A DNA stretch of 8,520 nucleotides from positions 1-8,520 of the forward strand of contig JBKPCR010000193.1 of NCBI GenBank assembly GCA_046727435.1, written 5' to 3'. The position numbers and the translations under genes were made by a program. Under the pieces are notes generated by a model. It searched no databases. It had not been told where the DNA came from and saw only the letters and a list, made by a program, of their open reading frames with translations. This document shows, in pieces, positions 1 to 8,520 of the stretch. The stretch's first letter is position 1; each line of letters opens with the position of its first letter. This stretch comes from CAVPRW01 sp046727435 [NCBI: bacterium] (GTDB lineage: Bacteria > Tectomicrobia > Entotheonellia > J063).

Positions 1-57
1 GGCCATATGGATATCCGTCGACCCCTTGACGCGACCTGGATCATCAATCAACGCTGA
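1..57 (+). CDS. C-terminal end of an upstream gene, possibly GerMN-domain
   Basis: Frame 1 is open from the window edge to TGA at 55-57 and reads [18 protein letters not shown]. It ends 20 bases before the chosen rph start, so it is probably the preceding gene of the same operon. A GH-[MILV]-D-[IL]-x-R-P-L ending resembles the tail of GerMN-domain (spore germination GerM-like) lipoproteins, which are often found just upstream of rph-rdgB in Desulfobacterota-type operons. That family call rests on only 18 residues plus context and is tentative. The existence of a coding end here is better supported than its identity. Confidence 0.45.
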
Positions 58-77
58 GTCAGGTGGAGGAGAGGTGT

Positions 78-875
78 GTGAGAGCTGATGGGCGACAACC
101 CGACGAGTTACGGCCGGTACGTTTCACACGTCACTTCAATAAGTACGCCGAAGGCTCGGTTCTCATCGAGGTTGGGGATACGAAAGTGATCTGTACGGCG
201 AGCGTTGAAGAGGGTGTACCGCCATTTCGCCGTGAGAGTGGCGAGGGTTGGTTGACCGCGGAGTATGCGATGTTGCCGCGGTCCACGGGAACGCGGAGCC
301 CACGCGAGTCGGCGCGTGGGCGCATTGGCGGACGCACGCATGAAATCCAGCGGCTGATCGGCCGTTCGCTGCGGGCGGTGGTGGATTTCCAGATGTTGGG
401 GCAGCGCACCGTGTGGATCGATTGCGATGTCATCCAAGCCGACGGAGGGACGCGGACGGCATCGATCACCGGGAGTTTTATCGCCGTCTTCGATGCCCTC
501 GAACATCTGCGTGTGCAGGGCATTATTCCGGTTGTTCCCCTGTGGGATTTTGTGGCGGCGACGAGCGTAGGGATCGTCGCCGAGCAACCCCTCCTCGATC
601 TGACCTACCAGGAGGATTCAGCCTGTGAGGTCGACATGAACGTCGTCATGACCGGCGCTGGACGGTTGATCGAGGTGCAGGGGACGGCCGAGCACCAACC
701 GTTTGCGCGGGAGGAGTTGGACCAGTTGCTGGACTTGGCGGCGCATGGTGTGGATCAACTGATTGCCCTGCAACGCACCCTCATTGGGGAGGATCGCCTT
801 GCGCCTCACGCTCCTCGTCGGGACCAAGAATCGGGGAAAGCTCGTCGAGATCCAGAGAATCTTGTCGGGGCTTGA
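78..875 (+). CDS. rph: RNase PH (tRNA 3'-end phosphorolytic exonuclease)
   Basis: RNase PH trims the 3' end of tRNA precursors with inorganic phosphate, releasing nucleoside diphosphates, as a ring-shaped hexamer in the cytoplasm. The family signature runs the whole length: VRADGR at the N-terminus, [66 protein letters not shown] (phosphate-binding Arg in GGTRT), and [15 protein letters not shown] with the acidic metal-site residues. I chose GTG at 78 because the family usually begins [MV]R-[AS]-DGR and GGAGG at 65-69 lies 8 bases upstream; an in-frame GTG at 63 would swallow that site. The protein is about 265 aa against a usual 237-250. The last 27 residues (from base 792) have no family counterpart and almost entirely overlap rdgB in another frame. 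Stop is TGA. Confidence 0.96.
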
Positions 876-1419
876 CCTCGACCTTCTCCCGTTGACCGAT
901 TTTATGCAAGCGCCGGACGTCGTCGAGGACGGCATGACGTATCGCGACAACGCCGTCAAGAAGGCGCAGACGATCGCCGCCTGGAGCGGTCAGCTCACCC
1001 TGGCAGATGATTCTGGCCTGGAAGTGGCGGCCTTGGGGGGCCAGCCGGGCGTCTATACGGCACGTTTTGGCGGCCTTGGCCTGAGCTCCCGTGAGCGCTG
1101 CCTGTACCTGCTGGAACGCCTGCGCGGCGTCCCGGACGGCCAGCGGCAGGCGGTCTTTCGCTGTGTTGCGGTCCTGATGGATCCCGCTGGGCGCATGAGC
1201 GTGCATGAGGGGCGATGTCCAGGGGTGATCGGGCACGACCTGCGAGGTGAAGGAGGCTTTGGGTATGATCCGCTCTTCTGGTTGCCGGAGCACGGATGCA
1301 CGTTCGCCGAGCTGTCATCGGAGCAGAAGGACGCGAGCAGCCACCGTGCCCAGGCGATGCGGGCCGTGATTCCCGTGTTAACCGCGCTGGCTCAGGGCGG
1401 TCCATGGCCTGAAGGATGA
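799..1419 (+). CDS. rdgB: XTP/dITP pyrophosphatase, RdgB/HAM1 family
   Basis: This enzyme hydrolyses non-canonical purine triphosphates (dITP, XTP, ITP) to monophosphate and pyrophosphate, keeping deaminated bases out of DNA and RNA. Family motifs appear in order: [11 protein letters not shown] near the N-terminus (nucleotide binding), [20 protein letters not shown] (catalytic acidic pair in DDSG), EGRCPG followed by [11 protein letters not shown], then [19 protein letters not shown], where SHR is the base-recognition motif. I chose TTG at 799 because GGGGAGG at 786-792 sits 6 bases upstream and the protein then begins directly at the family start, giving 206 aa; the longer frame from TTG 763 has no such site. 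It overlaps the rph 3' end by 77 bases, implying coupled translation of the pair. A KDASSHR segment replaces the more usual KNxxSHR. Stop is TGA. Confidence 0.95.
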
Positions 1420-1449
1420 GCCTTGCGGTTTTTGCCGCAGTGTGCTAGA

Positions 1450-1455
1450 TATACT
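1450..1455 (+). promoter_or_regulatory. Possible -10 box for the tRNA cluster
   Basis: TATACT lies about 40 bases before tRNA-Pro. The best upstream match to a -35, TTGCGG at 1423-1428, is 21 bases away, longer than ideal, and forms part of a small hairpin (TGCGG 1424-1428 with CCGCA 1435-1439). A dedicated promoter is reasonable because the tRNAs follow the rdgB stop, but read-through from the rph-rdgB operon is equally possible. Confidence 0.3.
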
Positions 1456-1495
1456 GCACCTTCCTGAAGGTGTCGCTCAGCGGTTGCAGGTCGGT

Positions 1496-1574
<79 letters not shown>

Positions 1575-1586
1575 CACGACGAACAA

Positions 1587-1660
1587 GCGCCCGTAGCTCA
1601 AACGGATAGAGCACGAGCCTTCTAAGCTTGGGGTTGCAGGTTCGATTCCTGCCGGGCGCG
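1587..1660 (+). tRNA. tRNA-Arg(TCT)
   Basis: The acceptor arms GCGCCCG (1587-1593) and CGGGCGC (1653-1659) pair fully. The D arm is GCTC/GAGC. The anticodon stem CGAGC/GCTTG encloses CTTCTAA with anticodon TCT at 1621-1623. The T-arm has GGTTCGATTCC. Discriminator base is G at 1660 and CCA is not encoded, unlike the neighbouring tRNA-Pro. Confidence 0.96.
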
Positions 1661-1701
1661 CTGGCTCGGGCGCTCTTCCTATGGACGACTGAACACTTGA
1701 T

Positions 1702-1774
1702 GGTGGGCGTAGCTCAGCGGCAGAGCACTGGGTTGTGGCCCCAGGGGTCGCGGGTTCAAATCCCGTCGCTCACC
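1702..1774 (+). tRNA. tRNA-His(GTG), integration target
   Basis: Acceptor arms GTGGGCG (1703-1709) and CGCTCAC (1767-1773) pair with one G-T. The extra 5' G typical of tRNA-His (1702) faces C73 (1774). The anticodon arm CTGGG / TTGTGGC / CCCAG holds GTG at 1735-1737. CCA is not encoded. From 1730 onward the gene is duplicated at 6996, so its 3' half forms one edge of an integrated element and was probably supplied by it. The tRNA is still complete and should be functional. Confidence 0.96.
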
Positions 1775-1794
1775 CTAAGTAAATCAAATATTTA
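1730..1794. repeat. Left attachment repeat of element 1 (tRNA-His 3' end plus integrase end)
   Basis: This is direct-repeat partner of 6996-7060, offset exactly 5,266. The 47-base core (1730-1776) differs at three positions only: 1751 C/G, 1758 A/G and 1765 G/C. Similarity continues at a lower level to about 1794, covering the shared integrase stop and the AAATCAA..ATTTA sequence. The tRNA-derived part is the expected attB/attP identity segment of a tRNA-targeting tyrosine recombinase. Confidence 0.85.
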
Positions 1795-2143
1795 CAGGGA
1801 GGCTGTCAGGCGGGTTTAGAGGCATTGTGCCCGAAAATGTGCCTGTCAGCTTCCTTGCCACCTGCAGATCACTGGGGCTGACGATATGGTAGCGGTCAAA
1901 CACCGTCCGGCTCCTGTGCCCAGACACCTTCATCGCCACCCGCTCAGGCAGACCTAGGTTGACCATGTTCCGCACTGCGGTGCGTTGGAAGTCATGCCGC
2001 AGCATCCCAGGACAACCTGCCTTCACACATGCAGTTTTCCAGGCTTTTTTAAAGTCCTGAACCCTCTTTCCCCGGTGTGGGCCTCTAAAAGGGAGTGGAC
2101 GCGTAGCCTGTGGGGAAAGAGGTGGAAAAAGCCAGATTACCAA
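1784..2143 (-). pseudogene. Tyrosine integrase, C-terminal remnant (element 1)
   Basis: The visible 119 residues match the catalytic half of a phage/island tyrosine recombinase: [50 protein letters not shown]50 (box II), H76 (box III) and nucleophile Y85 are present, but the box II arginine of H-x-x-R is Gln53 (codon CAA, 1985-1987); the sister integrase at 7050 has CGA in this position. The N-terminal DNA-binding domain and box I arginine are missing: the frame runs only to a stop about 30 bases upstream of the TTG used as nominal start, and the segment before RVQDF looks scrambled. It reads toward tRNA-His and stops 10 bases past it, the usual arrangement for tRNA islands. It is presumably inactive. 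Confidence 0.85.
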
Positions 2144-2257
2144 TATCCGTACATGGCGACTGATGGGCGTGAGGACCTAACCACTGGGCAAGGGCTACGC
2201 CGTGTAGTGCTCCCATGATTTCTTTGGACTCTGACTCACTGCTCTCTAGTGCTCTGG

Positions 2258-2293
2258 CCTCTGGGGGGAGTCCAGAGGGGTTCTCCCCTCTGG
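2258..2293. repeat. Competing hairpins, three complementary arms
   Basis: CCAGAGGGG (2272-2280) and CCCCTCTGG (2285-2293) form a perfect 9-bp stem around the loop TTCT. An upstream CCTCTGG (2258-2264) can pair instead with CCAGAGG (2272-2278), so two hairpins exclude each other. No T-run follows on either strand, so I do not call a terminator. It sits between the integrase remnant and the cargo. Confidence 0.6.
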
Positions 2294-2332
2294 TCGCTCG
2301 CCGTAAGTCTGCTATGACAATGACACGCCTAT

Positions 2333-2632
2333 ATGCGCGAGGCATCAGCGACGCTGCCAGGGAATGCCCGTGTTTCACAGCTCTATGATCCCTGGAAGCC
2401 AGTGATCTTCGGAGGGGCCTTCGTGCATGGCTCGTTTGAACGCCTCTATCCCCACATTGCCCGGTGGGTGCAGGCGCATGGCTATCATGAAATAAGGTGT
2501 AACGACTACCGCCGTTCCTTTGTCCGACCCCTGGACATCCGTAGCATGTTCTGGGAGAGGTTGGAGTCCTATCCGGCGGAACGCAATCCTTCCGGCTCCA
2601 AAACAGGAATCTCCCGTAACTGCTTTTTGTAG
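2333..2632 (+). CDS. Hypothetical protein, possible remnant
   Basis: This 99-aa frame starts at ATG 2333 without a recognisable Shine-Dalgarno site. I do not recognise a family. Its central part (PWKPVIFGGAFVHGSFERL, then YPHIARWVQAHGYHEIRCND) has the composition of a real globular protein: mixed aliphatic and aromatic residues, few rare repeats and no low complexity. The last 20 or so residues lie antisense to the end of the cyclotransferase-like frame on the other strand, so the true end may be missing. It is a convergent neighbour of the 2569-3439 pair. It could be the edge of a deleted gene or a chance frame. Confidence 0.35.
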   Translation: MREASATLPGNARVSQLYDPWKPVIFGGAFVHGSFERLYPHIARWVQAHGYHEIRCNDYRRSFVRPLDIRSMFWERLESYPAERNPSGSKTGISRNCFL

Positions 2633-2883
2633 TCCTCGCTCAACCCATGCTCCATCGCTCCAAGCAGCAGAAGATCACGATACGCCCTTGTCGGTTTGAG
2701 TCCGGCGCGAGGGGACTCTGCTATATAAGCGTATCCCTCCACTGACGTACCTTCCTGCTCTAATTGAACCTTCGTCCGGCGATACCCCACCTCGTGGAGA
2801 TCCAGAAACTCGATAACCTTGGCGGGGAGGTGATACAGGACGCCCTCGACCATGGCATCCTCGTTCGGCGCCAACTCAATCAA
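2569..2883 (-). CDS. Gamma-glutamylcyclotransferase-like domain, N-terminally truncated
   Basis: The 104 residues match the C-terminal two thirds of the GGCT/AIG2-like fold: VEGVLYHL near residue 12, then FLDLHEVGYRRTKVQL, VEGYAYIAES, LKPTRAYRDLLLLGAMEHGLSEDY. Glu31 in LDLHE is at the place of the family's catalytic glutamate. Members act on gamma-glutamyl peptides, releasing 5-oxoproline, although many bacterial ones have unknown substrates. The first strand with the Y-G-S-N substrate-binding loop is missing; a stop lies seven bases upstream of the TTG at 2881-2883. That TTG overlaps the stop of the membrane gene (2876-2878) by 8 bases, so translation could be coupled, or a deletion joined two genes. 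Without the N-terminal loop, enzymatic activity is doubtful. Confidence 0.7.
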   Translation of the reverse strand: MIELAPNEDAMVEGVLYHLPAKVIEFLDLHEVGYRRTKVQLEQEGTSVEGYAYIAESPRAGLKPTRAYRDLLLLGAMEHGLSEDYKKQLREIPVLEPEGLRSAG

Positions 2884-3439
2884 GATTCTTCATAACCGTT
2901 TTGACCAGGTCGATCCGTGCCTGTGCGCGGACACGATCAATGGCCTGTTCCATGAAATGAAAAAAGACTTTGATGACCTGTTCTGGCCCAATCGCGACAT
3001 CTTCGTCATCGATCCTAGCGGTGAATAGTTTCGAGCGCATAATCACCATGGATCCAAGCCCCGCAAAGAAGACCGCCTTCACGCGATCACCCTCCGTCGT
3101 CAGGGCCACAGCGTCAAAGACCTGGAGCATATAGAATGAGAAGGCCGCAACAGCGCCATTAAACACGTGATAGAGGAATCCCTGGATGGTCTCTAAGGCC
3201 CTCAGCGGCTCATCTTTGAATTTACCAAGGATTTCCGTAAATGCAGTGATGAAGCCCAGAAGGAACGTATAGAAGTACAAACGCTCATGTGAGGCGCCCT
3301 CATAAGGGGAGGACATCCAGACCAGGACAAGGACCATAATGTAAGCAACATAAATCGCCATTTGTCTGAGCGATTTCTTGACATGATGAGATCGTGAGAG
3401 CATTTGAAAGTTACCCAACAGCAGCCCTAGTCTGGTCAT
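2876..3439 (-). CDS. Multi-pass membrane protein of unknown function
   Basis: This 187-aa protein has an ATG start at 3437-3439 with AGGAGG at 3447-3452, seven bases upstream, making it one of the best-supported starts in the island. Predicted membrane segments are about residues 27-43 (MAIYVAYIMVLVLVWM), 54-72 (LYFYTFLLGFITAFTEILG), 88-108 (FLYHVFNGAVAAFSFYMLQVF) and a weaker one at 121-134. A soluble C-terminal tail follows, beginning RSKLFTARIDDEDVAIGPEQ and continuing as an amphipathic, Arg/Lys-rich helix. Positive charges before segment 1 suggest a cytoplasmic N-terminus. I do not recognise a named family. It is directly followed by the cyclotransferase-like frame. The open frame is intact, in contrast to most of the island. 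Confidence 0.75.
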   Translation of the reverse strand: MTRLGLLLGNFQMLSRSHHVKKSLRQMAIYVAYIMVLVLVWMSSPYEGASHERLYFYTFLLGFITAFTEILGKFKDEPLRALETIQGFLYHVFNGAVAAFSFYMLQVFDAVALTTEGDRVKAVFFAGLGSMVIMRSKLFTARIDDEDVAIGPEQVIKVFFHFMEQAIDRVRAQARIDLVKTVMKNLD

Positions 3440-4326
3440 ATTTTTGCCTCCTGCAGGCCTGAGCGTATTGCCGCGATTACTCTTAGAGAAGAGCCTCTAA
3501 TGTCTGCCGCTATCGTATGCTTGTCTCTCCGAAAGTACCTAGAGCCGCTCAGCCCTTGTATTGAGCAAGAATCGTGCGTCTCGATGTTATTTATTTTAAG
3601 TATTGAAATCTCCAGATAAAATAGGCTGATAGGTCATGAGAACACGTCAGCCTGGCTGCCCAAAATTAGACAGGTATGGCCGCCACCAACCAGGGAGAGC
3701 GCACTACAACCTGACAAATCGGCAGGTTGGGAATCTGCGCATTTCTGGATACCAATTGGTTGGATGTGCACACCCAAGTGGGGTTCCCACACTAAATCAC
3801 TAGGAGGGGCTTCCATGAACTTTTCCATAGGGGAGTGGGGGGAGAGTGGGAGTTTTGTGGAACTAAGGATTAAGGAGTGAAACCTCGGAGCGCATACGTG
3901 GGACCAATTCGCATTTGGCGGAAGGAAGCCACGAGAGCCTTGGAACCGATAGCCGTGGCAGCCTCCCATTCCGCCGTTGAGGTCGGGATCGGTGACTTGG
4001 GTAAACCTGTCAATTTCTGGGGGGTGTGAGGGCAAGGTGTTTATATGCCTCGCTCTCCATCCCTTCCCTCTTCCCTTCTGACGTTGAACTACTGACCCCA
4101 ACATAAATAGCTTAAGTTGTGTGACCCACGAAATGGCTTGCACAGCAGGTATCGCAGGCTACTGATACTTAAGATTCTATTGCTGGGATCAGTAGGTTAC
4201 AAATGATAGGCAGTACACAACCCCCAATTTTTGACAGGTTGGGGATATGTGAGAAGCATGCCATGGCGTGCAGCCAAGGGCAGAGCGCCTGATTCTCCTT
4301 ATCCGCCCACAGCTCTTCCGGAGCCC
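3440..4326. other. Gene-free stretch with inverted repeats
   Basis: The first 190 bases are A+T-richer than the surroundings and include the upstream region of the membrane gene, with a small hairpin TTAGAG/CTCTAA (3483-3500). A 169-codon frame on the - strand (3634-4143) has no family features, an odd composition (many His, Pro, Ser) and crosses several inverted repeats, so I do not call it. The remainder holds three copies of a CAATTTTTGACAGGT-like motif and two other hairpins: CAACCTG/CAGGTTG at 3707-3729 and CTACTGAT/ATCAGTAG at 4159-4195. Confidence 0.5.
4004..4240. repeat. MITE-like segment with 25-bp terminal inverted repeats
   Basis: Bases 4004-4028 (AACCTGTCAA, then GGGGGGTGTG) and the reverse complement of 4216-4240 agree at 20 of 25 positions, giving a 237-bp segment bounded by inverted ends AACCTGTCAA...TTGACAGGTT. 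No coding frame or transposase is inside. A third, weaker copy of the motif (GCCCAAAATTAGACAGGT) lies at 3658-3675 in the orientation of the right end. This fits a non-autonomous transposon remnant or the ends of a decayed insertion sequence. No flanking target duplication is clear. Confidence 0.4.
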
Positions 4327-4607
4327 TTAGCGTAATAGTCCCTCCCGTCGCAGCGCCTGCTCCAACTCTGGGTCACTGGGCTCCGCCAACACCTACTGTC
4401 CAATCTTGACCATTGGCTTCCTCTCCTTACCATCGTTCTGCTGCTTCACCCACTCGGACGCCTGCTGATCTTGCTCCACGTTGATGTATTGGTACGCGAC
4501 ACCCAGGCTGTCCAGATGTCGGCGCGTCCGCTGCGCATCCCCACACCAATCAGCCCCATAGACCTCGACCGTTCCCCTGGTCTCCTCTCTTCAAGGCCCT
4601 CTGTCAT
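4327..4607 (-). pseudogene. Glutaredoxin-like protein, broken
   Basis: The frame ending at TAA 4327-4329 reads a thioredoxin-fold glutaredoxin-like protein: TVEVYGADWCGDAQRTRRH, then LDSLGVAYQYINVEQDQQA, SEWVKQQNDGKERKPMVKIG, and the tail EPSDPELEQALRREGLLR. The active site is C-G-D-A, so the second cysteine of the usual CxxC is absent and only a monothiol reaction would be possible. Two lesions break it. TAG at 4393-4395 interrupts after IGQ, where a second Gln would be natural (CAG to TAG). The likely start, ATG 4605-4607 (MTEGLEERRPGE), is in a different frame and needs a one-base correction near 4570-4580 to join TVEVYG. It would have been about 93 aa, reducing disulfides or glutathionylated proteins in the cytoplasm. 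Confidence 0.8.
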
Positions 4608-5195
4608 GATGGCCAACCCCCCACCTCCCGTATGTACGGGCGCACTCTCTCAACTGTAGGGCTGCTACTCCGATGTGTCAACCACTTGACGGAGGCCTTG
4701 CATGTGTACACAGATATGGACTGGTCCGGCTCCCTGCAGGGGGCGGAGGGGGGACCCGGCCAGCGGGTGATGGGCCGCCAGAAGGTCGCCACCGATGCCT
4801 GCCGAAAGAGAGCTGCTCGGAAGATCGCCTAAAGGGTCCGTAACCCGATGTTTCCTACACCTTAAGTACTCAATTTTATGGAGCTGAGCGCGGACAAAAT
4901 CAGGGGGACCTTGGTGAGCGGAAGGCCCCCCCATGACGCTCGATCGCGCCTGCGTGAAGCCGCCTACCTGTCGGAGAACAAGACTCCAGCCGCCGAGGTA
5001 TTCCGCGCTGGTGCCATCCGATTGAGCCTGCCGTTGACGGAAGGGAAGTGAACATGGGTCGTGGAGCACCAGTCCAACGGTGTGCCATCGGAGACCTTGA
5101 AGCTGAGGCGAGCGGCTTGAGCCGAGGGCAGAGTGATGGTTATATCACCTCCTGACCTCACCACATGTGCATCGAAGCCGGGAACTCATCGCTCC
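4608..5195. other. Stretch with no convincing gene
   Basis: Several short frames exist on both strands but none shows a family motif together with a start signal. A 14-base sequence with inverted arms, CCCGTA-TG-TACGGG (4627-4640), sits 20 bases upstream of the glutaredoxin ATG and could be an old operator. On the - strand, 4964-5164 reads a short beta-rich peptide (SGGDITITLPSAQAARLSFK, then FPSVNGRLN) that faintly recalls the end of DUF4097-type beta-helical adhesin-like proteins; it may be a remnant of a gene downstream of the zinc-ribbon gene, but the evidence is weak. Confidence 0.4.
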
Positions 5196-5369
5196 TCAGC
5201 TCTTCTTGGTGGTCTTGACCTGAACGCTCGACATCTGCCTCACGACCTCCGAGCTGCCACACTCCGGACACTGGAAGCCCTCTGTTCTCTTGCGCTCATA
5301 TTCACTGATTGAAGAGCTAAACACAAAGCCTTTCCCACATTTCTGGCAGAGAAACTCATAGATTGGCAT
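5196..5369 (-). CDS. FmdB-type zinc-ribbon protein (57 aa)
   Basis: This short gene encodes a single zinc ribbon of the FmdB/CxxC_CxxC_SSSS family. It begins MPIYEFLCQKCGKGF and continues EGFQCPECGSSEVVRQMSS. Cys8, Cys11, Cys34 and Cys37 form the zinc site, and the M-P-[IL]-Y-E-[FY] opening is the family hallmark. Length is typical (55-100 aa). The start is ATG 5367-5369 with GGAGGA at 5378-5383, eight bases upstream; stop is TGA. The family was named after a putative regulator of formamidase genes, but most members have no known function and may bind nucleic acid or assist metal handling. It appears undamaged although its neighbours on both sides are broken, and it lacks an obvious operon partner. 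Confidence 0.9.
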   Translation of the reverse strand: MPIYEFLCQKCGKGFVFSSSISEYERKRTEGFQCPECGSSEVVRQMSSVQVKTTKKS

Positions 5370-5383
5370 GTGCTTTCTCCTCC

Positions 5384-5698
5384 GTCATGCGCCATCTTAC
5401 CTATGGTTCCCGAACACCCGTATCTATTGAAATCCATGCGCGTTATGCATTGGCTTCTCCTGATCTGCGGCGGGGCATCCAACCAATCGTGTGGGGGCGA
5501 TGGGCGAAGGACAGCGGCTGCCAGAAAGGGATTATCGGCGGGCTACTTGTCTACAAGTACCTCAACAGCACCATGGATCACGTCCAGAACATATGCAGGA
5601 TCGGAGAGGCCGTGTCAACCAGAATGTTGAACCAGCAACCGCAGTCAGCTCAACTGGCTGGGGCTCCCCCGCTTGTTCGCTGCCATCGGAGGAGATGC
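5384..5698. other. Stretch with no convincing gene
   Basis: Two overlapping + strand frames (5363-5737 and 5370-5630) begin inside the Shine-Dalgarno and start region of the - strand zinc-ribbon gene and show no family motif. The - strand has stops in all frames. I see no RNA gene and no strong repeat. It is probably spacer or eroded coding sequence between the zinc-ribbon gene and the beta-helix pseudogene. Confidence 0.5.
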
Positions 5699-6583
5699 TT
5701 ATTGGAGAGGTGCGCTATCCGACCCTCCAAAGCTTAAGTGGACCGTCGCGGTCTGACCGTCAAGGGTGCCACACGAGGGCACTCGTATGAAGTAGAGATA
5801 TGTAATTCCCGTCAGAGTCATCGGGGCATTGGTGACGCAGGAAGAGACCGTCACGAAGAGCTGCGCCGTCGGGGTGGCCGATGAGCTGGCAGATATCAAG
5901 AGGAAGTGGCCGCGATTGAAGAACGCGGCGCGAGTGATGTGCACAGTATCCGCAACGCCGAATTCGAAGGCTCCCAGATCCACGGTCCCCTGGAGAATGC
6001 GGGGACGGCCCTCCAGGTCCGTCAACGGAAGGCCAGGGGCGCTATTGTCCCCCTGGTCAATCACCGGAGAGCCCGCCTGCAAATGATAATCGTCGTTCTC
6101 GGCATCCACGAAACACGGATCCACGTCATGCAGGTTACTTGGATCAATCGGGAACGGTAGTGTCATAAACGTGCCTGCCGAACTGGTGTCAAAATCATTG
6201 GAAACGAGGTTGACGGGGGAAGGCTGACCATCCCCATTCCCATCGTTTTCCAGGAAGAGATCCGCTCCCGAGGCGGAAGAGTTGTTCCAGACAATGTTGT
6301 TGTAGAGATCTGCGGTATCACTGTTGGCCTTCAGCTGAAGCCGAAGACCACGGCCCGTGTTCCCCGTAATCGTGTTGTTGGTCACGATGATGGCGTGCTA
6401 CCACACGGTAAGGCCGCCGCAGCAGTTAGAGGCCGCATTCCTGGTGATGATGTTGTTCGCGATGGTGATGAGATCACCACTCACTGATCCTGGAGGCAGA
6501 GGCGAGGTCTGCCTGGGCATGTCCCCCGCGGTGTTGTGTGTACGCAGAGGCATGCCCCATGCCTGGCCCCGTGAGGGGGTCAA
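5699..6583 (-). pseudogene. Right-handed beta-helix surface protein, C-terminal part with in-frame TAG
   Basis: Beta-helix turns are recognisable as repeated Asn-rich rungs (ITIANNIITRN, then VTNNTITGNTGRG and LYNNIVWNN), followed by the conserved closing block of choice-of-anchor/parallel beta-helix proteins: DVDPCFVDAENDDYHLQAGS, PVIDQGDNSAPGLPLTD, GRPRILQGTVDLGAFEFG. After it comes a beta-rich C-terminal domain with paired cysteines that ends SDSAPLQ at TAA 5699-5701. Such proteins are secreted or surface-exposed and often bind or cleave polysaccharides; no catalytic site is visible. TAG at 6398-6400 splits the frame between LTVW and HAIIVTNN, with both sides clearly homologous rungs, so this is a nonsense mutation rather than two genes. 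The N-terminus with signal peptide and earlier rungs is missing, with no start signal near 6583. Confidence 0.85.
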
Positions 6584-6995
6584 GAGGGGACCCGTCCAGC
6601 CGTCATGGGGCTACAATCTCTGTCACGGCCTATGCTAGCTCAGCACTGCAGGCAAGTTTAGCCAGTTTGTTGGGCCGGGGTAGGAGCAGAAGGGGATTGG
6701 TAGTCTTGCAGGGCATGTCACAGAAAGAGGGTGCTGCATGGCCTGGACTGCAGGGGAAATGGAAGGATAAGACATGAAAAGCGACCGGATGAGAGAACCT
6801 AACGGAGTGTTCAGCTCTTACTTCTGGCACGCTCACGGCCGCCATTTTCAGGCCTTGACGCTGTACCCAACTGTGCCCATGACTGTGCCCGCGAGGGCCT
6901 GTAACTGACCCAAAATTACCTCCCGCCAACCAACCAGACAAAGAAAAACCCCTCAGTAAATCATTGACTTATCGAGGGGAATAGTCATGCCACAA
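6584..6995. other. Right end of element 1, no convincing gene
   Basis: Short frames on both strands lack family motifs. The - strand contains a repeated GGGCACAGT (around 6868-6890), translating as GTVMGTVGYSVKA before a stop. This vaguely resembles the short Gly-Thr tail seen in the element 1 integrase ([10 protein letters not shown]), but is too short to call. The last 60 bases hold the hairpin at 6949-6979 and the attachment core, as expected at the end of an integrated element. Confidence 0.4.
6944..6979 (-). terminator. Possible terminator behind integrase 2
   Basis: Read on the - strand, CCCCTC (6979-6974) pairs with GAGGGG (6954-6949) and is followed at once by TTTTT (6948-6944). It lies about 70 bases beyond the element 2 integrase stop in the direction of that gene. 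The loop is long (19 bases, with a possible inner AGT/ACT pairing), which lowers confidence. Inverted repeats of this kind can also be part of an attachment site arm. Confidence 0.4.
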
Positions 6996-7060
6996 GGGTT
7001 GTGGCCCCAGGGGTCGGGGGTTCGAATCCCCTCGCTCACCCTCATGAAATCAAGCATTTA
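6996..7060. repeat. Second attachment repeat: tRNA-His 3' fragment at the element 1/element 2 junction
   Basis: This copy starts at the anticodon stem (GGGTTGTGGCCCCAG) and runs through the T-arm (GGGGGTTCGAATCCCC) and acceptor strand CGCTCACC to the base equivalent to C73 (7040). The 5' half of a tRNA is absent, so it is not a gene. Its T-arm differs from the intact tRNA by a compensated C-G to G-C exchange. Just outside it, CCACAA (6990-6995) forms with GGG and TTGTGG (6999-7004) a near-palindrome suited to a tyrosine recombinase core site. Confidence 0.85.
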
Positions 7061-7433
7061 ATACCTCATCGTGAGGAAAGGAAGGGCCGTCTAGGAGGGA
7101 ACTATGAGTTTCGAGCAAGTCGAGTCTCCGGACGGCATCGAGATTGTCAGCGTCATCAGAAACGCCATATCGACGATAGATACTCTCCGTCCGATGTCCG
7201 GTGTTCTTCATGGTAACTGGCCTCGGCACACCAGCACGCTCGAAGTTCCGCGCAGTACGTCGGAAATCATGCCTTAGCATCGCAGGGCGTCCAGCCTTCT
7301 TAGATACGGTTTCCCAGTCCTTCTTGAAATCCTTGATGCGCGTCCCTCGCAAATGCCCTTTCATGTGGGGAAAGACGTAAGGAATCACTGGACGAAAACG
7401 CCTACTGGCCGCAACGCGCAACAACTCAACCAA
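7050..7433 (-). pseudogene. Tyrosine integrase, C-terminal remnant (element 2)
   Basis: The 127 residues show the catalytic C-terminal half of a tyrosine recombinase: PVIPYVFPHMKG, RIKDFKKDW, AGRPAMLRHDFRRTARNFER, AGVPRPVTMKNTGHRTESIY. His55 and Arg58 (HDFR, box II), His80 (box III) and nucleophile Tyr89 (in YRRYG) are all present. Relative to relatives, which read TAVRNFERAGV, one residue is missing after RRTA. The N-terminal DNA-binding region and box I arginine are missing; a TAG at 7449-7451 closes the frame upstream and a different gene remnant ends there. It reads toward the tRNA repeat and stops 10 bases past it, exactly as in element 1, and the two share RxxDFKKxW and LRHDFxRTA. It is therefore a related but diverged integrase. 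Confidence 0.85.
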
Positions 7434-7443
7434 GACTTTCGTC

Positions 7444-7714
7444 TCAGGCTATTCCTCGAAACCGGCCTTTCACAAGGGCAGCGGAATATGAACTGTTGAA
7501 AGCCCACGCGTTTTCAGTCTTGTACCAACAGGCACACCCCTGATCATTCCGCATGGGCTGCAGACCTGGCGGGAAAAGAAGGGATAACCGACACAGCAAT
7601 CCTTCCGGGTTGCTGCCTAGAGACTTTCCCCGCTCTAGGCCAGCATGTCGCCATAGCGACCGAACGTCGGTGTCGTCGGGGGGCTAACATTACCCAAGCA
7701 ATGAGCTTGGTCAT
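7444..7714 (-). pseudogene. Small exported-type protein, frameshifted in a C6 run
   Basis: ATG at 7712-7714 has an excellent Shine-Dalgarno site, GGAGG at 7722-7726 with a seven-base spacer, and begins MTKLIAWVMLA, which looks like the start of a signal peptide. The frame then meets a run of six C (7678-7683 on this strand). Removing one C joins it to a frame open to TGA 7444-7446 that reads PDDTDVRSLWRHAGLERG and ends GCACWYKTENAWAFNSSY, AALVKGRFRGIA. The corrected product would be about 90 aa. I recognise no family, and the signal peptide would be short, so the reconstruction may be incomplete. A perfect 8-bp hairpin (GCCTAGAG 7615-7622, CTCTAGGC 7633-7640) lies inside. It ends beside the truncated 5' end of the integrase. 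Confidence 0.4.
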
Positions 7715-7841
7715 GCAGTCACCTCCCCTCCTCCCCATGTGGAAGAATCTTCCTTGCGGAGCATCCTCAATATACTGAGGAATCACTCGCTGTTCAATCG
7801 GGACATGGGCATTCTGGCTTTGTGGATGGCGCTTACGGTAC

Positions 7842-8272
7842 TCACGTGTTTTTGCCGAACAGATAGCCAACCATAAGCGAAATAATAGGAAGCACCGTCT
7901 GCAGATAGTCGCCTGCGGGTACATTTGGTGGCACGAAAAGCACGGCGATACTTCTGAGTGTAAAAAGAAGAACGATAATACCTGCAATACTCGTCGGGGC
8001 ATTCGTTGCTGATCCGAAAATTTTCCCCAGCCAGCCCGCCTCAAGAGTCATGCGTGTTTGTTCAATCGCATAGCGACGCTCATAGAAGCTTCTTGTAGTC
8101 TGGTAGTCCTAGCGCAGGTCCTTTGCCACCTCTTCGTTTGGATGACCGCCCAGTAGGGCATCACCACCCCTCCGAGCCGCGTATCCCACACCCGCGTGAA
8201 CACCTCACGGGGGCGCGTCATGTCCTCCTGGAATTGTTCCACCAGGTCTCGGACGGTCATCCCCTGCTTCAT
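7842..8272 (-). pseudogene. Small two-helix membrane protein with TAG and frameshift upstream
   Basis: The 69-codon frame from ATG 8049-8051 reads MTLEAGWLGKIFGSATNAPT followed by two membrane segments, SIAGIIVLLFTLRSIAVLFV and YLQTVLPIISLMVGYLFGK. There is no Shine-Dalgarno site before this ATG, and the frame continues convincingly upstream as DYQTTRSFYERRYAIEQTR, then through TAG at 8109-8111 to GGHPNEEVAKDLR. A one- or two-base correction near 8162-8170 would link that to GMTVRDLVEQFQEDMTRPRE in the frame starting ATG 8270-8272. The likely ancestral product was about 140 aa: a soluble, charged helical N-terminus and a membrane-anchored C-terminus. I recognise no family. The 69-aa C-terminal piece could still be expressed, but more likely the gene is broken. 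Confidence 0.6.
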
Positions 8273-8472
8273 GGCCAGCCCCGCACCTGGGCAACGGTGA
8301 TGCATGGGGCCTGACCGATGGCCGCATGTGAAATTGCCCGTTGTTGTCTGTTGTCCAAAGTTTCCCTGGCTTCTTTCAAGATCACCCCAGCCCTGGGAAC
8401 GGCGTATAGCCGAGAAGCCACAGTTTGGGTATAATGCGAAACCATGTTTGCCGAAGTGGAGAAGACTGTCAT
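8269..8472 (-). CDS. Short hypothetical frame overlapping the next gene by ATGA
   Basis: A 67-codon frame reads MTVFSTSANMVSHYTQTVAS, with RLYAVPRAGVILKEARETLD after it, and stops with a TGA that overlaps ATG 8270-8272 of the membrane-protein pseudogene as ATGA, a common arrangement for translationally coupled genes. No Shine-Dalgarno site precedes the start and no family is recognised. The middle looks like an amphipathic helix. The frame overlaps another frame of similar length on the same strand, so it may be fortuitous. Confidence 0.25.
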   Translation of the reverse strand: MTVFSTSANMVSHYTQTVASRLYAVPRAGVILKEARETLDNRQQRAISHAAIGQAPCITVAQVRGWP

Positions 8473-8520
8473 CTGTGTCGCTCCGCCGCGGTTGGCCTTT
8501 CAAAGTCGTATCGGCAGGAC

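Follow-up and report, generated by a model that had tools for sequence, protein, structure and literature searches.

Repeated tRNA-His 3' half and adjacent integrase remnants

The window analyzed here is the whole of an 8,520-nucleotide (nt) stretch (contig JBKPCR010000193.1, positions 1 to 8,520, of assembly GCA_046727435.1; CAVPRW01 sp046727435, Tectomicrobia). It contains an intact tRNA-His (gtg) gene (1703..1775, + strand; called by ARAGORN and Rfam), the putative target of what is very probably a decayed array of two or more small integrative elements arranged in tandem at a single attB. The 3' part of this gene, from the anticodon arm to the tRNA 3' end, forms one copy of a direct repeat (1730..1776, +), whose second copy (6996..7042, +) lies 5,266 nt further on and matches it at 44 of 47 positions. 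We interpret copy 1 as the left attachment site (attL) of element 1, and copy 2 as a displaced tRNA-His 3' fragment that would form both the right end of element 1 and the left end of element 2. The two repeats bound the 5.2-kb element 1 (1776..6995); only the left part of element 2 (7043..8520) is present, its right end falling outside the window. Guanine-plus-cytosine (G+C) content is 62.6% in the host part (1-1775), compared with 55.1% in element 1 and 54.1% in the available part of element 2.

A chance repeat was ranked below our preferred explanation. When 1777-8520 was shuffled 300 times with dinucleotides preserved, the best match to the 47-mer on either strand reached only 29/47. The edge of the repeat is sharp and lies in the anticodon arm (1/10 bases identical just left of it, 10/10 at the edge). 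Weaker identity extends the repeat to 65 bases (88%), beyond the stop codons of both integrase genes described below, and the copies have an exact run of 21 bases in common. Neither ARAGORN nor Rfam called a tRNA at copy 2, and none of six 5'-acceptor heptamers or hexamers tested was found in the 100 bases preceding it.

Each copy is followed by a minus-strand gene that reads toward it and encodes the C-terminal part of a tyrosine integrase. int1 (1784..2143) matches positions 105-166 of the 172-position PF00589 (Phage_integrase) profile (E = 1.6e-5), and int2 (7050..7433) matches positions 77-169 (E = 1.2e-4); being partial, both score under the Pfam curated cutoff of 27.1 bits, and both also match PHROG integrases. 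The distance from the tRNA 3' end, or from its copy, to the stop (at 1784 and 7050) is 8 bases in each case, and the two products are 43% identical. Against a 381-amino-acid (aa) relative at locus L094 (full-length relatives used for comparison were 358 to 381 aa), int1 aligns to residues 268-349 and int2 to residues 265-365; int1 similarity is confined to about 1850-2098. No match to N-terminal integrase parts was found near either gene, and the lone other such match (E = 3e-4) lies inside rph and looks spurious. By alignment, then, int1 and int2 are C-terminal remnants that have lost the N-terminal two thirds, and because both lack this part, the elements would either be fossils or depend for movement on an integrase acting in trans.

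The initial annotation, which had been made from the sequence alone, reported both the 47-base segment recurring at +5,266 and the integrase C terminus at each copy with its stop at an identical offset. These claims held up on reanalysis; what the annotation overlooked is that neither gene extends beyond a C-terminal remnant (residues ~265-365 of 381).

The three differences between the repeat copies fall in the tRNA part: one is at a loop purine, and the other two convert a T-stem pair (C50-G64 to G50-C64), a compensatory change that leaves all 8 stem pairs intact in both copies. When three substitutions were placed at random, 0.97% of 400,000 trials gave a pairing double of this kind, a figure that assumes uniform substitution and is only a rough guide. 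Because two of the three differences form a compensatory T-stem pair, the fragment probably diverged inside a working tRNA gene and came from another functional tRNA-His, rather than from local duplication.

Relatives of the integrases at other tRNA genes

In a search of 297 genomes from one phylum (that reached through genome G001), int1 matched 58 places, spread over 47 genomes; int2 matched in one of 188 Myxococcota genomes. Our set of 52 distinct loci consists of 51 of the 58 int1 places (the seven omitted were among the weaker matches) plus one from the Myxococcota search. At 35 of these 52 loci, ARAGORN called a convergent tRNA within 300 nt past the integrase stop, and in 26 of the 35 the distance was at most 60 nt. 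The tRNAs are of type Leu (n = 18), Arg (n = 7), selenocysteine (SeC; n = 2, calls that may be wrong), and Met (n = 2), with one each of Lys, Phe, Gln, Ser, Cys, and Thr. At two of 19 loci inspected closely (L102 and L107), which had been picked mainly for want of a clean tRNA, the integrase instead abuts a tRNA 3' fragment.

In mobile-element collections, int2 had no match among phages or plasmids, and int1 matched 14 distant cyanobacterial plasmid records. As a DNA query, element 1 matched 17 records, in tRNA-His genes only. No viral contig carried the exact tRNA-His pattern; a looser pattern identified six stretches, and in the record behind two of our loci (L087/L088) a second 3' copy accompanies an intact tRNA-His, with no integrase identified there.

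In the alignment of relatives (53 rows, including one duplicate of the 52 loci), 51 rows have R at a box-II position where int1 has Q, and the other two are unaligned; from general knowledge of the family, we take this position to be the catalytic box-II arginine. C-terminal remnants recur in the family: of the 44 rows whose upstream sequence is 850 nt or longer, nine have nothing before residue 181. The query was itself a C terminus, and loci keeping only N termini could not have been found. The similar truncation of int1 and int2 had been considered as a sign of design, an idea we dropped since the first covered residue in the nine other remnants varies from 185 to 296.

A box resembling AAATCAAG lies a few bases past the tRNA end at both window copies (1781-1787 and 7047-7053) and at L147, L150, L160, L170, and L172. 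It recurs behind different integrase-linked tRNAs and displaced fragments, and in many cases an apparent terminator hairpin, judged by eye, comes next. WWWTCAA occurred within 34 nt past the end of 23 of 55 distinct tRNAs in integrase-linked loci, compared with 4 of 55 in a 5' control, and behind one of 29 tRNAs in mixed rdgB loci (control, 0). In two of the integrase-locus genomes it stood behind 6 of 38 tRNAs (control, 1), two of the six being in loci with an integrase match and one of the six being the tRNA-Phe of the L172 array discussed below. Both window copies keep AAATCAA, with the integrase stop codon inside it. The box may belong to att identity or to the end of tRNA transcription.

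Proposed stacked insertion and competing explanations

We propose that each element encoded a tyrosine integrase from a family that targets tRNA genes, the integrase gene reading toward the tRNA and ending just past its 3' end, and that a tRNA-His 3' half was brought in with each attP. By recombining in the anticodon arm, an element would exchange the gene's 3' half for its own copy and push the resident half to the far end of the insertion. The tRNA-His 3' part from 1730 onward would then derive from element 1, and the fragment at 6996 would be the junction of the two elements, giving the order tRNA-His, element 1, fragment, element 2, and an end beyond the window. Both integrases later lost their N-terminal two thirds. 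We infer recombination as the cause of this arrangement, a right end of element 2 beyond position 8520, and a loss of mobility.

If the halves brought by the two elements are called P1 and P2 and that of the host H, either order of arrival yields 5' half-P1-E1-P2-E2-H, because insertion of element 1 into the tRNA gene and insertion of element 2 into the closing fragment end alike. The layout therefore does not reveal the order, and the earlier suggestion that element 1 is most probably the later arrival is not supported. On the same model, both the present 3' half and the fragment would be element borne, and the half native to the host would be expected at the closing end of element 2. Other proposals of the initial annotation fared better: the data support elements that share a tRNA-His target, an orientation, and a module order, and whose integrases have diverged without any duplication of cargo. 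Its count of two elements is borne out for element 1, which has both ends, and in part for element 2, which shows only its left end.

An alternative that we regard as unlikely is that the elements are integrase-less units and more than fossils: they would retain just attP and the integrase 3' end that overlaps it, be moved in trans by full-length relatives, and swap the tRNA-His 3' half at each insertion, making the array a series of successive half-gene alleles from different lineages, marked by changes that preserve structure. The 8 stem pairs retained in both copies, the variable arm of a displaced tRNA-Leu fragment at L164 (see below), and the 9 of 44 loci with C-terminal parts only can be cited for it.

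It is less likely still that element 1 is a single island and int2 an older, unrelated relic in host DNA. The absence from the window of a fragment closing element 2 fits this explanation, whereas the placement of int2 does not: it belongs to the same family as int1, has the same orientation, and abuts the fragment at the same 8-base offset. Moreover, G+C content stays low behind the fragment, and L172 has a full-length integrase in the same fragment-abutting position.

The record is possibly metagenomic, and an assembly chimera of two molecules would have its join in a short repeat that includes the exact 21-base run. We nevertheless consider this very improbable, because the copies are not identical and because the fragment lacks a tRNA 5' half, which means that at least element 1, together with the fragment it displaced, must be genuine.

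Least credible is a local segmental duplication of the tRNA 3' part and integrase followed by divergence, which could explain the equal repeat-to-stop spacing. The att copies are 94% identical compared with 43% protein identity for the integrases, and the differences in the tRNA part keep all the stem pairs. Nothing else is held in common: the DNA common to elements 1 and 2 is an integrase stretch (73% over 92 nt), and the remaining matches between them are short, with E values of 0.005 or worse.

Stacked insertion thus remains our preferred explanation, with several results weighing against it. No third tRNA-His fragment was found in 7043-8520, and a complete element 2 is accordingly not established. 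Among the 52 loci, 17 have no convergent tRNA (at one the tRNA is on the same strand, and at 16 the 300-nt test detected no tRNA), and none of the 35 tRNAs beside integrase relatives is tRNA-His; the target specificity of int1 and int2 therefore rests on their place in the window. No close relative of either was found in viral contigs, where a search with the int1/int2 alignment gave one distant match. The scan with the rdgB product found no close host relative among the matches listed, and hence no empty tRNA-His site. Finally, a tRNA-His pattern search matched 34 of the 297 genomes, and in four of these an intact copy is accompanied by a displaced 3' fragment that likewise begins in the anticodon arm. 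In G116 the two copies share a contig, 11.1 kb apart; in G350, G152, and G067 they lie on different contigs. The occurrence of such fragments speaks for the explanation, and the integrases beside them speak against it. The integrases at these tRNA-His fragments are only 23 to 29% identical to our references, belong to another subfamily, and sit at the fragment end instead of the tRNA end. Judged by sequence, these elements share the tRNA-His target but are of another kind.

Flanking genes, cargo, and comparison with known arrays

On the host chromosome side, an rph-like RNase PH gene (63..875, +; PF01138, E = 8e-27; PF03725, E = 5.2e-14) is followed by an rdgB-like gene of the Ham1/NTP pyrophosphatase family (763..1419, +; PF01725, E = 6.1e-57), which is listed with a TTG start overlapping rph and whose true start may lie further in. 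Genes for tRNA-Pro (tgg; 1496..1574, +; ARAGORN and Rfam RF00005) and tRNA-Arg (tct; 1587..1661, +; ARAGORN and Rfam) precede tRNA-His. A Myxococcota record (L016, 1449-2500) has the same order of rph, rdgB, tRNA-Pro, tRNA-Arg, and tRNA-His, with identities to the window of only 50% and 53%. The genome scan with the rdgB product yielded at least 80 loci, the best at 51% identity among the matches listed. The closest rph products among the matches listed, from Desulfuromonadales and Geobacteraceae records, were 65% and 64% identical, and identity was at most 52% in a search of 58 genomes related to G002.

The recognizable cargo of element 1 lies on the minus strand. It comprises an AIG2/gamma-glutamyl-cyclotransferase-like protein (2569..2883; PF13772, E = 1.5e-10, above cutoff); a 187-aa protein, hydrophobic by eye, with only a subthreshold EamA match (2876..3439; E = 0.02); a small FmdB-type zinc-ribbon protein of 57 aa (5196..5369; PF09723, E = 7.3e-11; PHROG FmdB-like, E = 3.2e-5); and part of a possible repeat or beta-helix-like protein, with weak matches below cutoff (5699..6385; DUF5123, E = 0.0016; Disaggr_assoc, E = 0.025). 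Two minus-strand open reading frames at 5699-6583, one of them with a weak match to a repeat-type family, may be pieces of one broken protein. PADLOC, searched for defense cargo, gave no match for six open reading frames.

Arrays comparable to that in the window occur elsewhere in the family. We compared 22 longer stretches (20 that are not a random set, plus two more), discounting a tRNA-Gly match in L167 that we attribute to a tRNA gene edge and leaving out five stretches without a tRNA call. In seven of the 22, the tRNA 3' half linked to the integrase recurs further on, with 36 or more of 44 bases matching: L155 (twice), L160, L164, L166, L169, L170, and L172. In L155, from the genome with the best int1 match (G180; 59%), a tRNA-Leu gene and a full-length integrase gene are followed by two 44/44 copies of the 3' half, at positions 4500 and 7071 (4.4 and 7.0 kb away). 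In this array (L155:110-7115), the second unit, about 2.6 kb between the two 44/44 fragments, has no integrase-family match. In L172 (G339), which was selected because of its fragment, a tRNA-Phe gene is followed 14.6 kb on by a 44/44 fragment, which a full-length integrase of the family abuts. Both arrays resemble the window in their integrase family, its convergence with the tRNA, and the displaced 3' fragments; they differ in having Leu and Phe targets, full-length integrases (open frames of 381 and 358 aa), and fragments that are identical over 44 bases. In L164, the displaced tRNA-Leu fragment (13460; 19846-19927) differs from the gene in the variable arm with pairing kept, by eye, and is possibly another swap of a tRNA half. 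The L166 fragment has four differences, one of which breaks a T-stem pair, and these look like decay.

A limited literature search found no paper on this tRNA-His site. This kind of array is already known, and the novelty is in detail, namely the loss of integrases in both members and the compensatory pair that argues for separate origin. The locus is a small, clear example of stacked insertion at a tRNA gene and is otherwise ordinary. It illustrates that a compensatory pair between gene and fragment can tell a foreign insertion from a local duplication without an empty site, and it cautions that an array of this sort does not record which element came first.

The Islander paper (PMC4383910) counts 3,919 islands in tRNA and transfer-messenger RNA (tmRNA) genes, 2,083 of them at anticodon-centered sites, and 125 tandems of two or more, of which four contain three or more. 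It also gives the established model, in which the incoming attP supplies the gene with a new 3' half and the previous half is displaced (PMC4383910). By the standards of Islander, the window has an intact tRNA gene with a same-orientation downstream 3' fragment; that fragment runs to the end of the tRNA gene (1776/7042) without being a full tRNA gene; and element 1, at 5.2 kb, falls within the 2- to 200-kb range. The tyrosine integrase genes are present as C-terminal remnants only, under the Pfam cutoff, and where a tandem calls for an integrase and a fragment for each member, the window has two integrase remnants and one fragment. The likeness to the tandem islands described there extends to the intact tRNA gene, the same-orientation fragment, the anticodon-centered crossover, and, as far as the remnants show, a tyrosine integrase gene in each member; the differences are that both integrases are remnants, that the second closing fragment is unseen, and that the copies differ by a compensatory pair (PMC4383910).

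A second parallel is offered by the ssrA islands of Dehalococcoides, which stack behind one RNA gene (PMC3146451), are bounded by direct repeats of its 3' end, and form longer arrays. A reverse-strand integrase gene sits beside attL, with its 3' end at attL, and some of the islands have no integration genes and are viewed as cis-mobilizable (PMC3146451). Stacking at an RNA gene, an integrase gene or its remnant beside attL, and members without intact integration genes are common to both systems, whereas Dehalococcoides uses a serine recombinase and tmRNA, and the window a tyrosine integrase and tRNA-His (PMC3146451). With att sequences kept and their own integrases lost, the elements in the window also have the features expected of cis-mobilizable elements (CIMEs), as far as these can be predicted from sequence.

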